Of a DNA stretch of 38,528 nt, positions 8,726-33,073 are shown piece by piece. The translations under genes and the position numbers were made by a program. The notes under the pieces are model-generated. The model was given only the letters and a program-made list of their open reading frames with translations. It had not been told where the DNA came from and searched no databases. The DNA is from Desulfuromonadales bacterium (lineage in GTDB: Bacteria > Desulfobacterota > Desulfuromonadia > Desulfuromonadales > JACZKF01): NCBI GenBank assembly GCA_029289095.1, contig JARFUG010000001.1:91590-130117 (forward strand), read 5' to 3'. Within the stretch, counting starts at the first letter, position 1, and each line of letters starts with the position of its first letter.

Positions 8726-8802
8726 CAGGTTTCAGGCTCCAGGTTTCAGGTTTCAGGTCAGGCATTTAAACCTGATTCCTGAAACCTGGCGCCTGATGCC
8801 TG
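8726..8802. repeat. Heptamer word element between hisA and hisF
   Basis: The left arm is a 7-bp periodic array (CAGGTTT, CAGGCTC, CAGGTTT, CAGGTTT, CAGGTCA). The right arm is the reverse-complement pattern (AAACCTG, ATTCCTG, AAACCTG, GCGCCTG, ATGCCTG). Together they form an inverted repeat around GGCATTT. The element starts 4 nt after the hisA stop and ends 16 nt before the hisF start, so it fills nearly the entire gap. Confidence 0.9.
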
Positions 8803-9535: not shown

Positions 9536-9556
9536 TGTAAATCCTTAAAGGCAGTA

Positions 9557-9634
9557 TCCAGGAGCCGGAATCCAGAATCCAGAATAAAGCCTTTGATTTT
9601 CTACCGGCTCCTGGCTCCTGGCTTCTGGCTCCTG
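9557..9634. repeat. Heptamer word element between hisH and hisA
   Basis: Left arm heptamers are TCCAGGA, GCCGGAA, TCCAGAA, TCCAGAA. Right arm heptamers are GGCTCCT, GGCTCCT, GGCTTCT, GGCTCCT. The arms are reverse-complementary in pattern around an AT-rich spacer (TTTGATTTT). The element begins about 4 nt after the hisH stop. It shares its word family (CCAGGAG) with the elements at 14398, 24059 and 24863. Confidence 0.9.
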
Positions 9635-12292: not shown

Positions 12293-12386
12293 GTGAGGAG
12301 TGAGGGGTTAGGAGTGAGGAGAAACTTCTTAAAGTATTGTTTTTGCATTGGAATTTACTCCTCACCCCTCACGCTTCACTCCTCAC
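12293..12386. repeat. Heptamer word element between hisG and hisD
   Basis: The left arm has GTGAGGA, GTGAGGG, GTTAGGA, GTGAGGA. The right arm has ACTCCTC, ACCCCTC, ACGCTTC, ACTCCTC, AC. These are 7-bp periodic and mutually inverted around an AT-rich spacer. The hisG stop codon TGA is itself part of the outermost GTGAGGA word on the minus strand. Confidence 0.9.
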
Positions 12387-13048
12387 TGACTTATCCTGAC
12401 GTCCTCTCCGATCACCTTCTCGAGGCCCTCGATGATCGGAACGATGCGGGCGTGCTTTGTCTTGAGGCTCGCGCGGTTGACGATGAGGCGGGTGGTGATT
12501 TCTGCGATGGTCTCCACCTCGGCCATGCCGTTGTCGCGAAGCGTCGCTCCGGTGGAGACGAGGTCGACGATGCGCTCCGAAAGGCCCACCAGGGGCGCCA
12601 GTTCGATGGAGCCGTAGAGCTTGATGATCTCGACCTGCACCCCCTTGGCGGCGAAGTAGCGCTCGGTGAGGTTGGGATACTTGGTCGCCACGCGGATATT
12701 GGACCAGCTCGCCGGATCGTCGTTCTTGCGCAGCTCTCTGGGCTCCGCGACGACCAGGCGGCAGTAGCCGAACTTCAGATCGAGGGGCTCGTAGAGATCT
12801 TTTCCCTGCTCCAGAAGCGTGTCTTTTCCGACGACCCCCAGGTCGGCGCAGCCGTACTCCACGTAGGTGGGAACGTCGGTGGCACGAACCGCCATGAAGC
12901 GCAGTCTGCTCTGAGGGTTTTCGAAGACGAGCTTGCGGCTGTTTCCCTCCTCCATCTCCGGGCAGGTGATGCCGATACGGGAGAATAGCTCCATCGAGTC
13001 CTGCATGATCCGCCCTTTGGGCAGCGCGAAGGTGATCCAGTCACTCAT
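12383..13048 (-). CDS. hisG: ATP phosphoribosyltransferase HisG, short form
   Basis: First and committed step of histidine synthesis: ATP plus PRPP to phosphoribosyl-ATP. At 221 aa it is the short form, which lacks the C-terminal histidine-binding domain and normally requires HisZ for activity and feedback control. No hisZ is in this window. Motifs include TFALPKGRIMQD at the N-terminus, DLGVVGKDTL, and the PRPP-binding region DLVSTGATLRDNGM. It follows murA directly (23 nt). Its stop codon lies in the adjoining heptamer repeat. Confidence 0.97.
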   Translation of the reverse strand: MSDWITFALPKGRIMQDSMELFSRIGITCPEMEEGNSRKLVFENPQSRLRFMAVRATDVPTYVEYGCADLGVVGKDTLLEQGKDLYEPLDLKFGYCRLVVAEPRELRKNDDPASWSNIRVATKYPNLTERYFAAKGVQVEIIKLYGSIELAPLVGLSERIVDLVSTGATLRDNGMAEVETIAEITTRLIVNRASLKTKHARIVPIIEGLEKVIGEDVRISQ

Positions 13049-14397: not shown

Positions 14398-14476
14398 AGC
14401 CAGAATTCAGAATCCAGGAGCCAGAATAAAATGCCTTTGAATCCCTCCTGGCTCCTGGATTCCGGCTCCTGGCTAC
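14398..14476. repeat. Heptamer word element between prmC and murA
   Basis: Left arm words are AGCCAGA, ATTCAGA, ATCCAGG, AGCCAGA. Right arm words are TCCTGGC, TCCTGGA, TTCCGGC, TCCTGGC, TAC. The outermost bases form the inverted repeat GTAGCCAG ... CTGGCTAC, and the prmC stop codon TAG lies inside the right end. Confidence 0.9.
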
Positions 14477-15321
14477 TGCTTTTTCCCTCCGACCACGCGG
14501 ACCACTCCGGCGTAATCGGATCGGGTGAAGATGTTCGAGAGTCCCGATTGCAAGAAGAGTTCCGAAACGGCCTGCGCCTGGCCGATTCCCACCTCCACCA
14601 CGAGCCACCCTCCGGGGGCGAGGCTGCCGGTCGCCTGAGAGGCCAGGAGCCTGTAGGCGTCGAGACCGTCGGGACCGCCGTCGAGAGCGAGACGCGGCTC
14701 GTAATCGCGCACCTCGGGCATGAGGGCTCCGATCTCTGCGGCGGGGATGTAGGGGGGATTGGAGACGATGAGTCCCCATGGCCCCTGCGGCAGTGCGCGG
14801 AGGTCGCCCCGGCAAAAGACGACGCGCTCGTGCAACTGATGTTGCCGGGCGTTCTCCTGAGCAATCGCCAGCGCCTCGGAGCTGAGGTCGATCCCCTCTA
14901 CCCGGGCTCTGGGGAGTTCCGAGGCGAGCGCCAGCGCGATGGCGCCGCTTCCGGTTCCGACATCGAGAATCGTCTCCGCCCCCGACCCGACCCGAAGGGC
15001 CTCCTCCACCAGGACCTCGGTATCGGCGCGGGGAACAAGAACGGCGGGAGAGACCCGAAGGGGAAGAGACCAGAACTCGGCCTTCTCCAGGATGTACTGG
15101 AGCGGTTCGCGCCGCGCCCGGCGCCGGACCATCTCGCGAAAGGCGGCCAGTTCCGCCGACTCCAGGGGACGGTCGAACTGCAGGTAGAGGCCGACCCGGT
15201 CGAGCCCCAGCACCTTGGCGAGAAGGAGCTGTGCATCGAGGCGTCCCCCCTCGATCCCCTTGTCTCCGAGGTATCCTTCGGTCCACTGCAGGATTTTGAG
15301 GACGGTCCAGACTTCGGACAC
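14473..15321 (-). CDS. prmC: Peptide chain release factor N5-glutamine methyltransferase PrmC
   Basis: Methylates the glutamine of the GGQ motif in release factors RF1/RF2. 282 aa. The helical N-terminal recognition domain covers residues 1-85. The SAM-binding fold has DVGTGSG (120-126) and VEGIDLSSEA. The catalytic NPPY motif is at 188-191 (LIVSNPPYIP). Its substrate gene prfA is immediately upstream (3-nt gap). The final codons KKQ-stop run straight into the repeat, so the last few residues may have been altered by its insertion. Confidence 0.97.
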   Translation of the reverse strand: MSEVWTVLKILQWTEGYLGDKGIEGGRLDAQLLLAKVLGLDRVGLYLQFDRPLESAELAAFREMVRRRARREPLQYILEKAEFWSLPLRVSPAVLVPRADTEVLVEEALRVGSGAETILDVGTGSGAIALALASELPRARVEGIDLSSEALAIAQENARQHQLHERVVFCRGDLRALPQGPWGLIVSNPPYIPAAEIGALMPEVRDYEPRLALDGGPDGLDAYRLLASQATGSLAPGGWLVVEVGIGQAQAVSELFLQSGLSNIFTRSDYAGVVRVVGGKKQ

Positions 15322-24053: not shown

Positions 24054-24058
24054 GGTTC

Positions 24059-24119
24059 AGGAGCCAGGAGCCAGGAGCCAGGAGCCAGGAGCCAGGAGCC
24101 AGGAGCCAGGAGCCAGGAA
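24059..24119 (+). repeat. Tandem heptamer array (AGGAGCC x8)
   Basis: Eight exact, contiguous copies of AGGAGCC (24059-24114) plus a partial ninth. The array starts 5 nt after the transporter stop codon and lies about 45 nt before cysH. There is no reverse-complement arm. This is the same word family as the elements at 9557, 14398 and 24863, here perfectly homogenised. Confidence 0.97.
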
Positions 24120-24859: not shown

Positions 24860-24862
24860 ATC

Positions 24863-24897
24863 AGAATCCAGGAGCCAGAATCCAGGAGCCAGGAGAA
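24863..24897 (+). repeat. Heptamer word array between cysH and cysD
   Basis: AGAATCC, AGGAGCC, AGAATCC, AGGAGCC, AGGAGAA: an alternating 7-bp array starting 3 nt after the cysH stop. There is no inverted partner. Its last AGGAG is the only purine-rich ribosome-site-like sequence before cysD, although at 13 nt it is far from the ATG. Confidence 0.9.
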
Positions 24898-24908
24898 AAA
24901 AGACCGTT

Positions 24909-25808
24909 ATGAAAATGACCCATCTCAAACAGCTCGAAGCCGAGAGCATCCACATCATCCGCGAGGTCGCCGCCGAGTTCGACAATCCGGTGATGCTCTA
25001 CTCCATCGGGAAGGACTCGGCCGTCATGCTCCACCTGGCGCGCAAGGCCTTCTATCCGGCCAAGCCCCCGTTTCCGCTGATGCACATCGACACGACGTGG
25101 AAATTCCGCGAGATGATCGAGTTTCGCGACCGCATGGCGCGCGAGTGCGGCTTCGACCTGCTCGTCCACATCAACGAGGAGGGGGTGCGTCAGGGGATCG
25201 GCCCCTTCACCCACGGCTCGGCCCTGCACACCGACATCATGAAGACCGAGGCCCTCAAGCAGGCTCTCACCAAGTACAAGTTCGACGCCGCCTTCGGCGG
25301 CGCCCGGCGCGACGAGGAGAAGTCGCGGGCCAAGGAGCGGATCTTCTCTTTCCGCACCGAGAGCCACCGCTGGGACCCCAAGAGCCAGCGCCCCGAGCTG
25401 TGGAACATCTATAACGCGAAGGTCCGCAAGGGCGAGAGCATCCGGGCATTTCCGCTCTCCAACTGGACCGAGCTCGACATCTGGCAGTACATCTATCTGG
25501 AGCAAATCCCCATCGTCCCGCTCTACTACGCCAAGGAGCGCCCCGTGGTCGATCGCGACGGGATGCTCATCATGGTCGACGACGAGCGGATGGAGCTCAA
25601 GCCCGGCGAGAAGGTCGAGATGAAGTCGGTGCGCTTTCGCACCCTGGGGTGCTATCCCCTGACCGCCGCCGTCGAGTCGAACGCCGCCACCCTCCCCGAG
25701 ATCATCCAGGAGATGCTCCTCACCCGCACCAGCGAGCGCCAGGGGCGTCTCATCGACCACGATCAGTCGGGGTCGATGGAGAAGAAGAAGCAAGAAGGAT
25801 ACTTCTGA
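24909..25808 (+). CDS. cysD: Sulfate adenylyltransferase subunit 2 (CysD)
   Basis: Catalytic PP-loop subunit of ATP sulfurylase, which forms APS from ATP and sulfate with CysN GTPase. 299 aa. PP-loop [18 protein letters not shown] (about 31-48), [32 protein letters not shown] and the conserved C-terminal [10 protein letters not shown] are present. The last six codons and stop form one arm of a perfect 19-bp hairpin. The ribosome site is poor or is supplied by the repeat. Confidence 0.97.
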
Positions 25809-25832
25809 GTGGCCTCAGAAGTATCCTTCTTG
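25791..25832 (+). repeat. Perfect 19-bp inverted duplication of the cysD 3' end
   Basis: CAAGAAGGATACTTCTGAG (25791-25809, the last cysD codons, stop and one base) is followed by the 4-nt loop TGGC and the exact reverse complement (25814-25832). No T-tract follows, so it is not a standard terminator. Because the left arm encodes the conserved C-terminus, the right arm is most simply an inverted copy. Confidence 0.95.
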
Positions 25833-25834
25833 TT

Positions 25835-26244
25835 AGCTGAAAGCTGGAAGCTTTAAGCTGTAAGCGGGGAGGAGAAAATGGACTTCGAAAAAACTGGATG
25901 TCTGGACACGGTCTTGCCGCCTATCTGTAGAAATCTACAAAAACTGGGGATTCAAAGATCAAATTACCCGGGCATCCCTATCCGTTCCCAGCAATATCGC
26001 GGAAGGAATGGTTAAACAAACCAATCTTGAAAAGGCACAATTTCTTCATATCGCCAATGGCTCATGTGCCGAATTACGGACGCAAACCTACATTGGATTG
26101 AAATAGGCTATATCCCCGAGAAACAGGGCGCAGACTGGATCAAAGAGACAAAAGTAATCAGCGCCATGTTAATGGGTTTGATAAGAAGATTACAAAGCTA
26201 ATAATTTTTTCTCTTTCAGCTTACGGCTTACAGCTTATAGCTCG
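25835..26244. mobile_element. Heptamer-arm element carrying a four-helix-bundle pseudogene
   Basis: The left arm is AGCTGAA, AGCTGGA, AGCTTTA, AGCTGTA (25835-25862). The right arm is CAGCTTA, CGGCTTA, CAGCTTA, TAGCTCG (26217-26244), the inverted pattern with the same 7-bp period. Between them lies a single AT-rich gene remnant (25878-26201). It splits cysD from cysNC, which are normally adjacent. The layout is that of a mobile unit with terminal inverted repeats and one cargo gene, but no transposase is present. Confidence 0.65.
25878..26201 (+). pseudogene. Frameshifted four-helix-bundle protein (S23 / 23S rRNA intervening-sequence family)
   Basis: Reading across frames gives MDFEK, then KLDVWTRSCRLSVEIYKNWG, FKDQITRASLSVPSNIAEGM and GSCAELRTQTYIGL, then IGYIPEKQGADW up to LIRRLQS-stop. 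This is the family's full about 107-aa layout. There are two lesions: one extra A in the six-A run at 25888-25893, and one missing base near 26099-26104 that creates TAG. A good GGAGGAG site precedes the ATG. The sequence is clearly more AT-rich than its neighbours. The family includes proteins encoded in rRNA intervening sequences and is structurally related to Avd of diversity-generating retroelements; its function is unsettled. Confidence 0.88.
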
Positions 26245-26259
26245 AAAACGGAGTTTTCG

Positions 26260-28146
26260 ATGGCTCACCAATCCGATCTGATCGCCAGCGACATTCTCGC
26301 CTACCTGAAAACGCAGGAAGAAAAGGGGATGCTGCGCTTCATCACCTGCGGCAGCGTCGACGACGGCAAGAGCACCCTCATCGGGCGCCTGCTGTGGGAT
26401 TCGAAGATGATCTTCGAGGACCAGCTCGCCTCGCTGGAGGCCGACAGCCGACGCGTCGGGACGCAAGGGGAGAACATCGACTACGCCCTTCTGCTCGACG
26501 GGCTGCAGGCCGAGCGCGAACAGGGGATCACCATCGACGTCGCCTACCGCTTCTTCTCCACCGACAAGCGCAAGTTCATCGTCGCCGACACCCCGGGTCA
26601 CGAGCAGTACACGCGCAACATGGTCACCGGGGCCTCCACCGCCCAGGTCGCCATCATCCTCATCGACGCGCGCAAGGGGGTCCTCACACAGACGAAGCGC
26701 CACAGCTATCTCGTCTCGCTCGTCGGCATCCGCCATGTCGTTCTGGCCATCAACAAGATGGACCTGGTCGACTACAGCGCCGGGCGCTTCGAAGAGATCC
26801 GACGCGAGTACGAGGCTTTCGCCGCGGGGTTGGGCTTCGACCAGATCGCAGCCATCCCCATCTCGGCGCTGAACGGCGACAACGTGCTGGTGCGCAGCGA
26901 AAAGACCCCCTGGCACCAGGGACCGACGCTGATGGACTACCTCGAGACGGTGCAGGTCGCCGACGCCGCGGCCCAGAAGCCGTTTCGGATGCGGGTGCAG
27001 TGGGTCAACCGCCCCAACCTCGACTTCCGGGGCTTCTGCGGCACCGTCGCCTCGGGGATCGTCCACCCGGGGGACGAGGTCGTCGTCACCTCCTCCGGGA
27101 AGACGTCCCGCGTTGCGCGCATCGTCACCATGGACGGCGACCTCGAAAGAGCCGCCGCCGGGCAGGCGGTCACCCTGACGCTCGAAGACGAGATCGACAT
27201 CAGCCGAGGCGATACCCTGGCGACCCCGGAGATCCCCCCCTACCATGCCGACCGCCTCGAGGCGAAGATCGTATGGCTGCATGAGGATCCGCTCCTGCCC
27301 GGGCGAAGCTACCTCCTCAAGGCCGGCTCCTCCACCGCCCCCGCGCAGGTGGCCGAGCTCAAATTCAAGGTCAACGTCAACACCCTGCAGCAGGAGGCGG
27401 GCAAGTCGCTGCGCCTCAACGAAGTGGGAGTCTGCTCGCTGACCCTCGACAAGGCGATCTCTTTCGATTCGTACCGGGAGAACCGGGGCACGGGGAACTT
27501 CATCCTCATCGACCGCCTCACCAACGCCACCGTCGGCGCCGGAATGATCCACCAGCCGCTGCTTCGCTCCGGCGCAAGCCACTGGCAGAGCCTCGATCTC
27601 GACAAGAAAGCCCGCGCCGAAATCAAGGGACAAAAGCCGCGGGTGCTGTGGTTCACGGGGCTGGCCGGCGCGGGCAAGTCGTCGCTGGCCAACCTGGTAG
27701 AGAAGAGGCTGCACTCCCTGGGGCGCCATACCTACATCCTTGACGGCGACAATCTTCGTCGGGGGCTCAACCGCGATCTCGACTTCGGCGATGCCGATCA
27801 GGTCGAGCATGTGCGCCGCACCGCCGAGGTGGCCCGGCTCTTCGTCGACGCCGGGATGATCGTCCTGGTCGCGGTCACCTCTCCCTTCCGCCGAGAGCGC
27901 CGCGCCGCCCGCGAACTCTTCGAGCCGGCGGAGTTCGTCGAGATCTTCGTCGACACCCCGATCGAACTGTGCGAAGAGAGGGAACCCGACGGGATCTACC
28001 AGAAGGCGCGCATCGGCGAACTCCACGACGTCAGCGGCGTCGACTTGACGTACGAGCCGCCGGAGCAGGCTGAAATCGTCGTCAGCGGCGCGGAAGGTTC
28101 CGCCGAACAGATCGCCGAACGCATCGTTCGGCAATTCTGGGGATGA
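26260..28146 (+). CDS. cysNC: Fused sulfate adenylyltransferase GTPase subunit / APS kinase (CysNC)
   Basis: 628 aa. The N-terminal CysN is an EF-Tu-like GTPase that drives APS formation by CysD: GSVDDGKST (31-39), ADTPGHEQYTRNM, NKMDLVDY, then beta-barrel domains to about residue 445. The C-terminal APS kinase makes PAPS: P-loop GLAGAGKSS near 467, DGDNLRRGLNRDL, and EEREPDGIYQKARIGEL. The ATG follows GGAG at 6 nt, within a small hairpin CGAAAAC-GGA-GTTTTCG (26243-26259) that puts part of the ribosome site in the loop. PAPS production beside an APS-type reductase suggests a second use for PAPS. Confidence 0.96.
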   Translation: MAHQSDLIASDILAYLKTQEEKGMLRFITCGSVDDGKSTLIGRLLWDSKMIFEDQLASLEADSRRVGTQGENIDYALLLDGLQAEREQGITIDVAYRFFSTDKRKFIVADTPGHEQYTRNMVTGASTAQVAIILIDARKGVLTQTKRHSYLVSLVGIRHVVLAINKMDLVDYSAGRFEEIRREYEAFAAGLGFDQIAAIPISALNGDNVLVRSEKTPWHQGPTLMDYLETVQVADAAAQKPFRMRVQWVNRPNLDFRGFCGTVASGIVHPGDEVVVTSSGKTSRVARIVTMDGDLERAAAGQAVTLTLEDEIDISRGDTLATPEIPPYHADRLEAKIVWLHEDPLLPGRSYLLKAGSSTAPAQVAELKFKVNVNTLQQEAGKSLRLNEVGVCSLTLDKAISFDSYRENRGTGNFILIDRLTNATVGAGMIHQPLLRSGASHWQSLDLDKKARAEIKGQKPRVLWFTGLAGAGKSSLANLVEKRLHSLGRHTYILDGDNLRRGLNRDLDFGDADQVEHVRRTAEVARLFVDAGMIVLVAVTSPFRRERRAARELFEPAEFVEIFVDTPIELCEEREPDGIYQKARIGELHDVSGVDLTYEPPEQAEIVVSGAEGSAEQIAERIVRQFWG

Positions 28147-33000: not shown

Positions 33001-33073
33001 ATCCGCAGATTTCGCAGATTGCGCAGATTTCAGAGCATGAGGCAATCTGCGAAAATCTGTGTAATCTGCGGAT
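33001..33073. repeat. Nonamer word element downstream of selO
   Basis: The left arm has CGCAGATTT, CGCAGATTG, CGCAGATTT. The right arm has AATCTGCGA, AAATCTGTGT, AATCTGCGG. The outermost ATCCGCAGA / TCTGCGGAT pair perfectly. The element sits 8 nt after the selO stop, filling the space between selO and the zinc-ribbon promoter. Confidence 0.9.

Follow-up and report, generated by a model that had tools for sequence, protein, structure and literature searches.

An inverted heptamer unit between cysD and cysNC: S23/IVP genes and many intergenic heptamer repeats as probable components of a single class of mobile DNA

Introduction

Short heptamer repeats and small four-helix-bundle genes have been described together in the intervening sequence of the Coxiella 23S rRNA gene, where tandem GACAGAT heptamers precede an S23p ORF and the insert has inverted ends (PMC4990558). 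Elsewhere, heptamer repeats have been given other roles. The GGGAATC heptamers of Xanthomonas and the GGGGA(C/T)T heptamers of Nostoc were described as G-quadruplex sites, with 70-75 convergent pairs per genome; such pairs are frequent in Xanthomonas, and the authors generally saw no association with mobile elements (PMC4692102). The TAACTGA repeats of Beggiatoaceae (PMC4679880) and the heptanucleotide families of Geobacter metallireducens (PMC2700814) were described as possible regulators. A link between heptamer repeats and free-standing IVP genes was not found in the open literature, subscription journals and most preprints lying outside the search.

Here we describe such a link, starting from a 38,528-nucleotide stretch of a Desulfuromonadales genome (hereafter the window) and extending to IVP genes of many phyla.

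Results

The initial annotation of the window had noted inverted heptamer arms around the remnant of a four-helix-bundle gene between cysD and cysNC, and the sequence confirms this arrangement:

24909-25808, plus strand: cysD, upstream neighbour of the unit, 88-92% identical to relatives' cysD
25792-25831, unstranded: cysD 3' end duplicated in inverted orientation over 17 bp, AAGAAGGATACTTCTGA / TCAGAAGTATCCTTCTT, with a 6-nt loop
25835-25865, plus strand: left heptamer arm, AGCTNNA, about 4.4 units, agctgaaagctggaagctttaagctgtaagc
25878-26201, plus strand: decayed S23/IVP four-helix-bundle gene (PF05635 / TIGR02436), with an intact orthologue at the same site in genome G010 (L030/L066)
26213-26242, minus strand: right heptamer arm, the reverse complement of the left arm, ctttcagcttacggcttacagcttatagct
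26242-26260, unstranded: small palindrome TCGAAAACGGAGTTTTCGA, also present in L055, L066 and L080, whose loop holds the cysNC ribosome-binding site
26260-28146, plus strand: cysNC, downstream neighbour of the unit

The unit is thus intergenic and does not lie inside a 23S rRNA gene. Reverse complementarity of its arms scores 18, against a mean of 7 in random window stretches (maximum 12 with the left arm as query), and the window genome has no other triple array of AGCTNNA. The remnant matches PF05635 at 75 bits (curated cut-off 33.8) and carries one internal TAG. Alignment with the intact G010 copy (L030/L066) shows that one nucleotide has been inserted just after the start and that 18 nt and, further on, a single nucleotide have been deleted; both single-nucleotide changes shift the frame. 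G010 retains the intact gene within the same arms at the same junction, and G011 (L042) has the order cysD, arms, intact IVP gene, cysNC, with AGCTGTA/AGCTTTA arms. Because intact copies occupy the same junction in both genomes, the window unit is, by this comparison, the ruin of an element still intact in relatives; with its reading frame lost, it would now be an inert relic. The fold-back copy of the cysD 3' end abuts the left arm, is perfect over 17 bp in the window and similar in G010 (L066), and looks as though insertion duplicated its flank in inverted form.

The intact orthologue L030 scores 104.8 bits against PF05635 and 105 against TIGR02436 (cut-off 24). Its predicted model (pLDDT 97.5) resembles the four-helix bundle of Xcc0516 (2gsc; TM 0.83-0.90), and residues W11, R39, S43, N47, G51, E73 and T76 (L030 numbering) are invariant. 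Relatives of the protein have been crystallised as pentamers. Searches of PADLOC defence families gave no match, and phage records likewise contained no match, leaving a phage origin unsupported.

Intact PF05635 genes in general have inverted heptamer arms, with strong enrichment over other genes and in members from many phyla, as the initial annotation had anticipated for periodic inverted arrays. Among 246 pooled distinct PF05635 genes, a period-7 array lies within 300 bp on at least one side in 176 and on both sides in 92; at the same genes, period 8 is found in 23, period 9 in 9 and other short periods in at most 9. At roughly one IVP gene in four no array can be detected, which counts against a unit of arms and gene. 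When IVP genes are compared with control genes drawn from the same loci, period-7 arrays are present on either side of 127/187 IVP genes and 38/239 controls (OR 11, p=1.5e-28), and on both sides of 65/187 and 6/239, respectively; the control rate exceeds zero because many of these genomes hold gene-less arrays. For 50 distinct IVP genes of the order, such arrays occur at 32 upstream and 32 downstream flanks, compared with 0-3 per side for other short periods (a signal at lag 14 is a harmonic of 7) and 0/1000 base-shuffled flanks, while control gaps gave 15 matches, of which about 4 are leaked IVP flanks. Period-7 arrays also occur at 47/82 loci from named genomes (Gammaproteobacteria, Verrucomicrobiota, Planctomycetota, Bacteroidota, Bacillota, Caldisericota, Nitrospirota and others), at 20/30 Xanthomonadales loci and at most cyanobacterial plasmid IVPs.

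Arm units of the putative element are 7-bp tandem repeats, sometimes of 8-9 bp, and upstream arms are purine-rich and G-rich. In the 85 elements with both arms readable, the consensus heptamers are reverse complements at 6/7 positions or more in 50 (p<1e-4), against 2.4% of mismatched pairs and 9/85 in direct orientation. The heptamer is common to 14% of pairs at 60-70% protein identity and over long distances is only weakly associated with protein sequence (Mantel r 0.11), a value on which we reject a simple protein-heptamer code and consider direct recognition of one fixed heptamer by IVP unlikely. Across elements it is the period and the pairing that are conserved, and heptamer sequence turns over.

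Several further observations concern the variety of units. The window holds an inverted pair with a 9-bp period at 33004-33031 and 33044-33070 (CGCAGATTT / AATCTGCGA), and some IVP genes (L200, L202) are likewise flanked by 9-bp period arms. Long AGTAGGG arms delimit an IVP unit on a plasmid of Nostoc edaphicum (L255), where it separates nrdB from nrdA and is oriented opposite to both. The neighbourhood of surface-polysaccharide (nucleotide-sugar) genes seems to be rich in IVP units, as many as five per 30 kb (L009, L011, L013, L019, L024; G403:C1:473626-503296 and similar regions).

Related copies indicate that arms and gene travel together. In Pseudoalteromonas (60 genomes, 20 with IVP), genes at different sites with at least 80% protein identity have a common arm heptamer (at least 6/7 positions) in 17/17 pairs, a share that falls to 76% at 70-80% identity and 5% below 50%. 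The same two unlike arms, AGCCGTC upstream and AGCTATC downstream, recur at different sites in L328/L329 and in L088/L091/L274. Such sharing between sites could also arise by recombination between pre-existing arrays. The units of L180 and L193 are 94% identical over 377 bp and their flanks lack homology, and genome G269 carries the same element at three places together with tandem, internally deleted derivatives that keep the heptamers. In the latter genome, L191 and L192 (G269:C1, about 3.06-3.09 Mb) contain tandem 215-bp units of truncated IVP gene plus heptamers beside full copies. Plasmid copies of Calothrix brevissima share a longer segment, so boundaries cannot be read from them. Between the arms of the cysD, suhB and f61 units lies solely the IVP gene of about 115 aa, with no transposase there, and sites with an empty or gene-less relative display no obvious target-site duplication by eye; both observations weigh against a mobile unit.

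Orthologous sites add inversion and gene loss. At the site shared by L170 and L179, both flanks match in inverted order (flank 93%, unit 94% identical). At a locus compared in four related genomes, the gene has opposite orientations in G096 and G165, while G132 and G193 lack it and retain only the same short two-heptamer inverted residue; with flanks 90-93% and the two genes 94% identical, these opposite orientations fit inversion in place. Between suhB and trmJ in Pseudoalteromonas, the arms (CCGTCAG)n and (TGATAGC)n enclose a gene block of 403 bp in L289 and L294 but a mere 2 bp in L288 and L290, whose arms and outer flanks are otherwise the same; suhB is 97-99% identical among all four. Absence of the gene from L288 and L290 is more simply read as loss, because the outlier L294 also carries it. 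Other species have IVP genes at suhB|trmJ in either orientation and with other heptamers, and in L293 and L295 a different repeated insert, gagaagtgaatgagaag...cgcagcgtctctttatctctttgtg, replaces the IVP unit between degenerate arms. Across 20 pairs the dN/dS of IVP is 0.03-0.20, so selection maintains the protein.

Occupancy of the cysD|cysNC junction itself varies. In 30 sampled cysD loci, cysD and cysNC abut in about 14; two, the window and G010, have arms and gene; and about 14 have other inserts, several of them clear inverted arrays, each with a private heptamer (AGCTGTA, GGGACGC, GGCCCGA, ACTGATA and others). Arms at one site without the gene, which the initial annotation had named as evidence against a tie between the two, therefore do occur here, although the cases that can be traced, at other sites, are ones of gene loss. 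IVP genes also occupy this junction in Pseudomonas, Halopseudomonas, Modicisalibacter and one Opitutales genome. Independent, repeated targeting of the junction is not claimed, since a single resident IVP lineage is not rejected (p-AU 0.56).

The window also holds arrays without a gene:

8726-8802 (8726/8770), unstranded: gene-less inverted heptamer pair of the same architecture, CAGGTTT
9552-9634 (9552/9606), unstranded: gene-less inverted heptamer pair, CAGAATC/CAGGAGC family
12293-12387 (12293/12357), unstranded: gene-less inverted heptamer pair, GTGAGGA
14401-14478 (14401/14445), unstranded: gene-less inverted heptamer pair, CAGAATC/CAGGAGC family
24058-24118, unstranded: unpaired array of 8.7 perfect CAGGAGC units
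24862-24895, unstranded: unpaired CAGAATC-CAGGAGC array

Like the known heptameric intergenic repeat families, the arrays are period-7 tandem units in intergenic DNA. The pairs at 9552/9606 and 14401/14445, the array at 24862 and the CAGGAGC run at 24058 belong to one genome-wide family (CAGAATC/CAGGAGC), to whose units those at 8726/8770 and 12293/12357 are related without being the same. Counts for the whole genome come from samples and pattern searches; one such search returned 110 matches to CAGAATCCAGGAGC with at most one mismatch and 0 for the reversed control pattern. At twenty sampled places, elements of the CAGAATC family end on both sides in the consensus GCAGAATCCAGGAGCCAGGAG, whose limits are sharp; the majority are situated after a stop codon and before a start codon. 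The seven elements with both ends readable span 89-228 bp and have mutually unrelated interiors. Along some arrays the heptamer shifts, to AAGACGG in L367, GTGAGGA in L380 and AGGAGCT in L375; in these and in L383 the common CAGGAGC type at the outer end gives way, without loss of the 7-bp phase, to a private heptamer further in, a pattern that growth of arrays from the inner side would leave.

No IVP gene with CAGAATC-type arms was found in the window genome; GTGAGGA-type heptamers do flank IVP genes in G020, G021 and G039 (L023, L010, L035). The only intact IVP gene of the window genome (L001, G000:C29:102244-102558) has a longer N-terminus, a 173-aa frame and flanking repeats of a GTACGGGCCTTCGGCCC hairpin with no heptamers, and forms with its relatives L050_15263 and L051_12301 a separate, long-branched clade. 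Long perfect arrays persist in the IVP-less genomes G409 and G359. Given these and the more than 100 CAGAATC-type matches without a matching IVP, arms may proliferate without the gene; array density in IVP-less and IVP-rich genomes is highly variable in a small sample. The initial annotation had placed all pairs in one class, with those lacking cargo derived from full units. Where descent can be traced, as at suhB|trmJ and in G132/G193, gene-less pairs do appear to be cargo-less forms of full units. The window's other pairs share the architecture of the AGCT copy but, belonging to other heptamer families, are by sequence not its derivatives.

Discussion

We consider it probable, at roughly 70%, that what lies at cysD|cysNC is the decayed remainder of a small mobile unit composed of an arm, an S23/IVP gene and an inverted arm. 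Comparison among genomes documents, at the level of sequence, co-occurrence of arms and gene, co-transfer, in-place inversion, cargo loss and purifying selection on the protein. As for mechanism, IVP, as an Avd-like oligomeric helical bundle, might bind the arms of its own unit, either folded or single-stranded and in DNA or RNA form, and recruit host replication or recombination enzymes, by which the unit would be copied or moved. Slippage, or copying from a hairpin template, could lengthen the arms and let them drift in 7-nt steps; this would account for a conserved period and inverted pairing alongside a heptamer sequence that is not conserved. Recombination between arms could invert the unit, and deletion of the hairpin loop could remove the gene. 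A broader proposal, to which we give slightly less than even odds, is that S23/IVP proteins serve the mobility or maintenance of a transposase-free class of elements whose ends are set by the 7-nt period and mutual complementarity and not by a fixed sequence, with much intergenic heptamer content and the rRNA intervening sequences being its product or debris.

The most serious competitor, though an unlikely one, holds that it is primarily the arrays that move or expand, and that recombination carries the IVP gene, as a passenger, in and out between existing arms. Arm-only families outnumber gene-bearing ones in the window genome, they can have sharply bounded common termini around unrelated interiors, and arms are present in genomes without IVP, all of which such a passenger would explain. 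Across bacteria, however, the gene has arms far more commonly than do random genes or gaps, the IVP protein is under purifying selection, and presence of the gene in both L289 and the outlying L294 makes loss in L288 and L290 simpler than entry.

Only a little less plausible is an insert acting at the RNA level, with no active transposition, in which the arm stem within an operon transcript is trimmed by RNase III; under the same reading, IVP or the stem might serve the host, in regulation or after domestication, cysDNC being one possible instance. The protein family and inverted ends are those of the 23S rRNA intervening sequences excised by RNase III (PMC4990558), inserts sit between stop and start codons of operon genes, and persistence at cysD|cysNC in several phyla has been long, with one clade not rejected. 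Such an insert is harder to reconcile with gene orientation going either way at the same site, with the many relatives at cysD|cysNC that lack gene and arms or have gene-less arms, and with arm complementarity that is often imperfect.

The initial annotation had also looked to Avd, which works together with a reverse transcriptase, for a mechanism in which template copying writes the arms. The predicted L030 fold does match Bordetella phage Avd (4dwl, TM 0.78-0.84; Avd chains of 8ub7 also match), but this partnership is very improbable: no RVT_1 domain was found in the window genome (G000) or in G011, G193 and G352, of which G011 has nine PF05635 matches at E<=1e-3 and G352 four IVPs with long perfect arrays, and the proteins fall outside the bAvd sequence family (L019 at 18 bits against a cut-off of 40; other tested sequences without a match). 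The proposed Avd-type mechanism is thus left unsupported.

Chance or ordinary slippage in AT-rich intergenic DNA has a negligible claim, for although simple repeats of heptamers are reported in excess between the genes of many bacteria (PMC4692102, PMC4679880), the specificity of the period, the matched inversion and the enrichment over shuffled sequence, other periods, other intergenic gaps and other genes rule it out.

Returning to the mobile unit, a so far unrecognised class of mobile DNA appears to comprise both the IVP gene family and many of the heptamer repeats that lie unexplained between genes. If this is true, a widespread protein family of unknown function gains a genomic role, the heptamer repeats so far reported as separate cases (Xanthomonas, cyanobacteria, Beggiatoaceae, Geobacter, Coxiella) gain an origin, and known mobile DNA gains a unit that lacks a transposase and whose ends are not a fixed sequence. 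The suhB|trmJ junction of Pseudoalteromonas and the cysD|cysNC junction offer concrete test systems.

Comparison with known systems

The 23S rRNA intervening sequences of Coxiella and Leptospira, with their S23p/IVP ORF, share the protein family and terminal inverted repeats with the units described here. The present units differ in lying between protein-coding genes without rRNA context, in having long arrays on both sides, and in being seen inverted, gene-less and at many sites.

Avd of diversity-generating retroelements (PF22296) shares a four-helix-bundle fold with the predicted IVP model (TM about 0.8), but the units described here have no reverse transcriptase and no template or variable repeat, and the protein sequence lies below the bAvd cut-off.

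MITEs, IS elements and REP/RAYT systems are likewise short and dispersed, with inverted ends and non-autonomous derivatives that have deleted their cargo. In contrast to these, the arms of the cysD, suhB and f61 units enclose no transposase, the ends are defined by period and not by a fixed sequence, the interiors of one genome-wide family (CAGAATC) are mutually unrelated, and no target-site duplication was obvious by eye. Fixed terminal repeats common to copies are found within the window genome (CAGAATC family) and within Pseudoalteromonas, and not across lineages.

The published heptamer repeats of Xanthomonas, Nostoc, Beggiatoaceae and Geobacter metallireducens and the cyanobacterial STRR resemble the present arrays in their 7-bp units and intergenic location. 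GGGAAT/GGGATTC-type arms flank the Xanthomonadales IVP genes L351, L352, L358 and L360, and IVP genes on Nostoc/Calothrix plasmids have heptamer arms as well. Those repeats have been read as regulatory or G-quadruplex sequences, whereas the arrays described here are linked to IVP genes.
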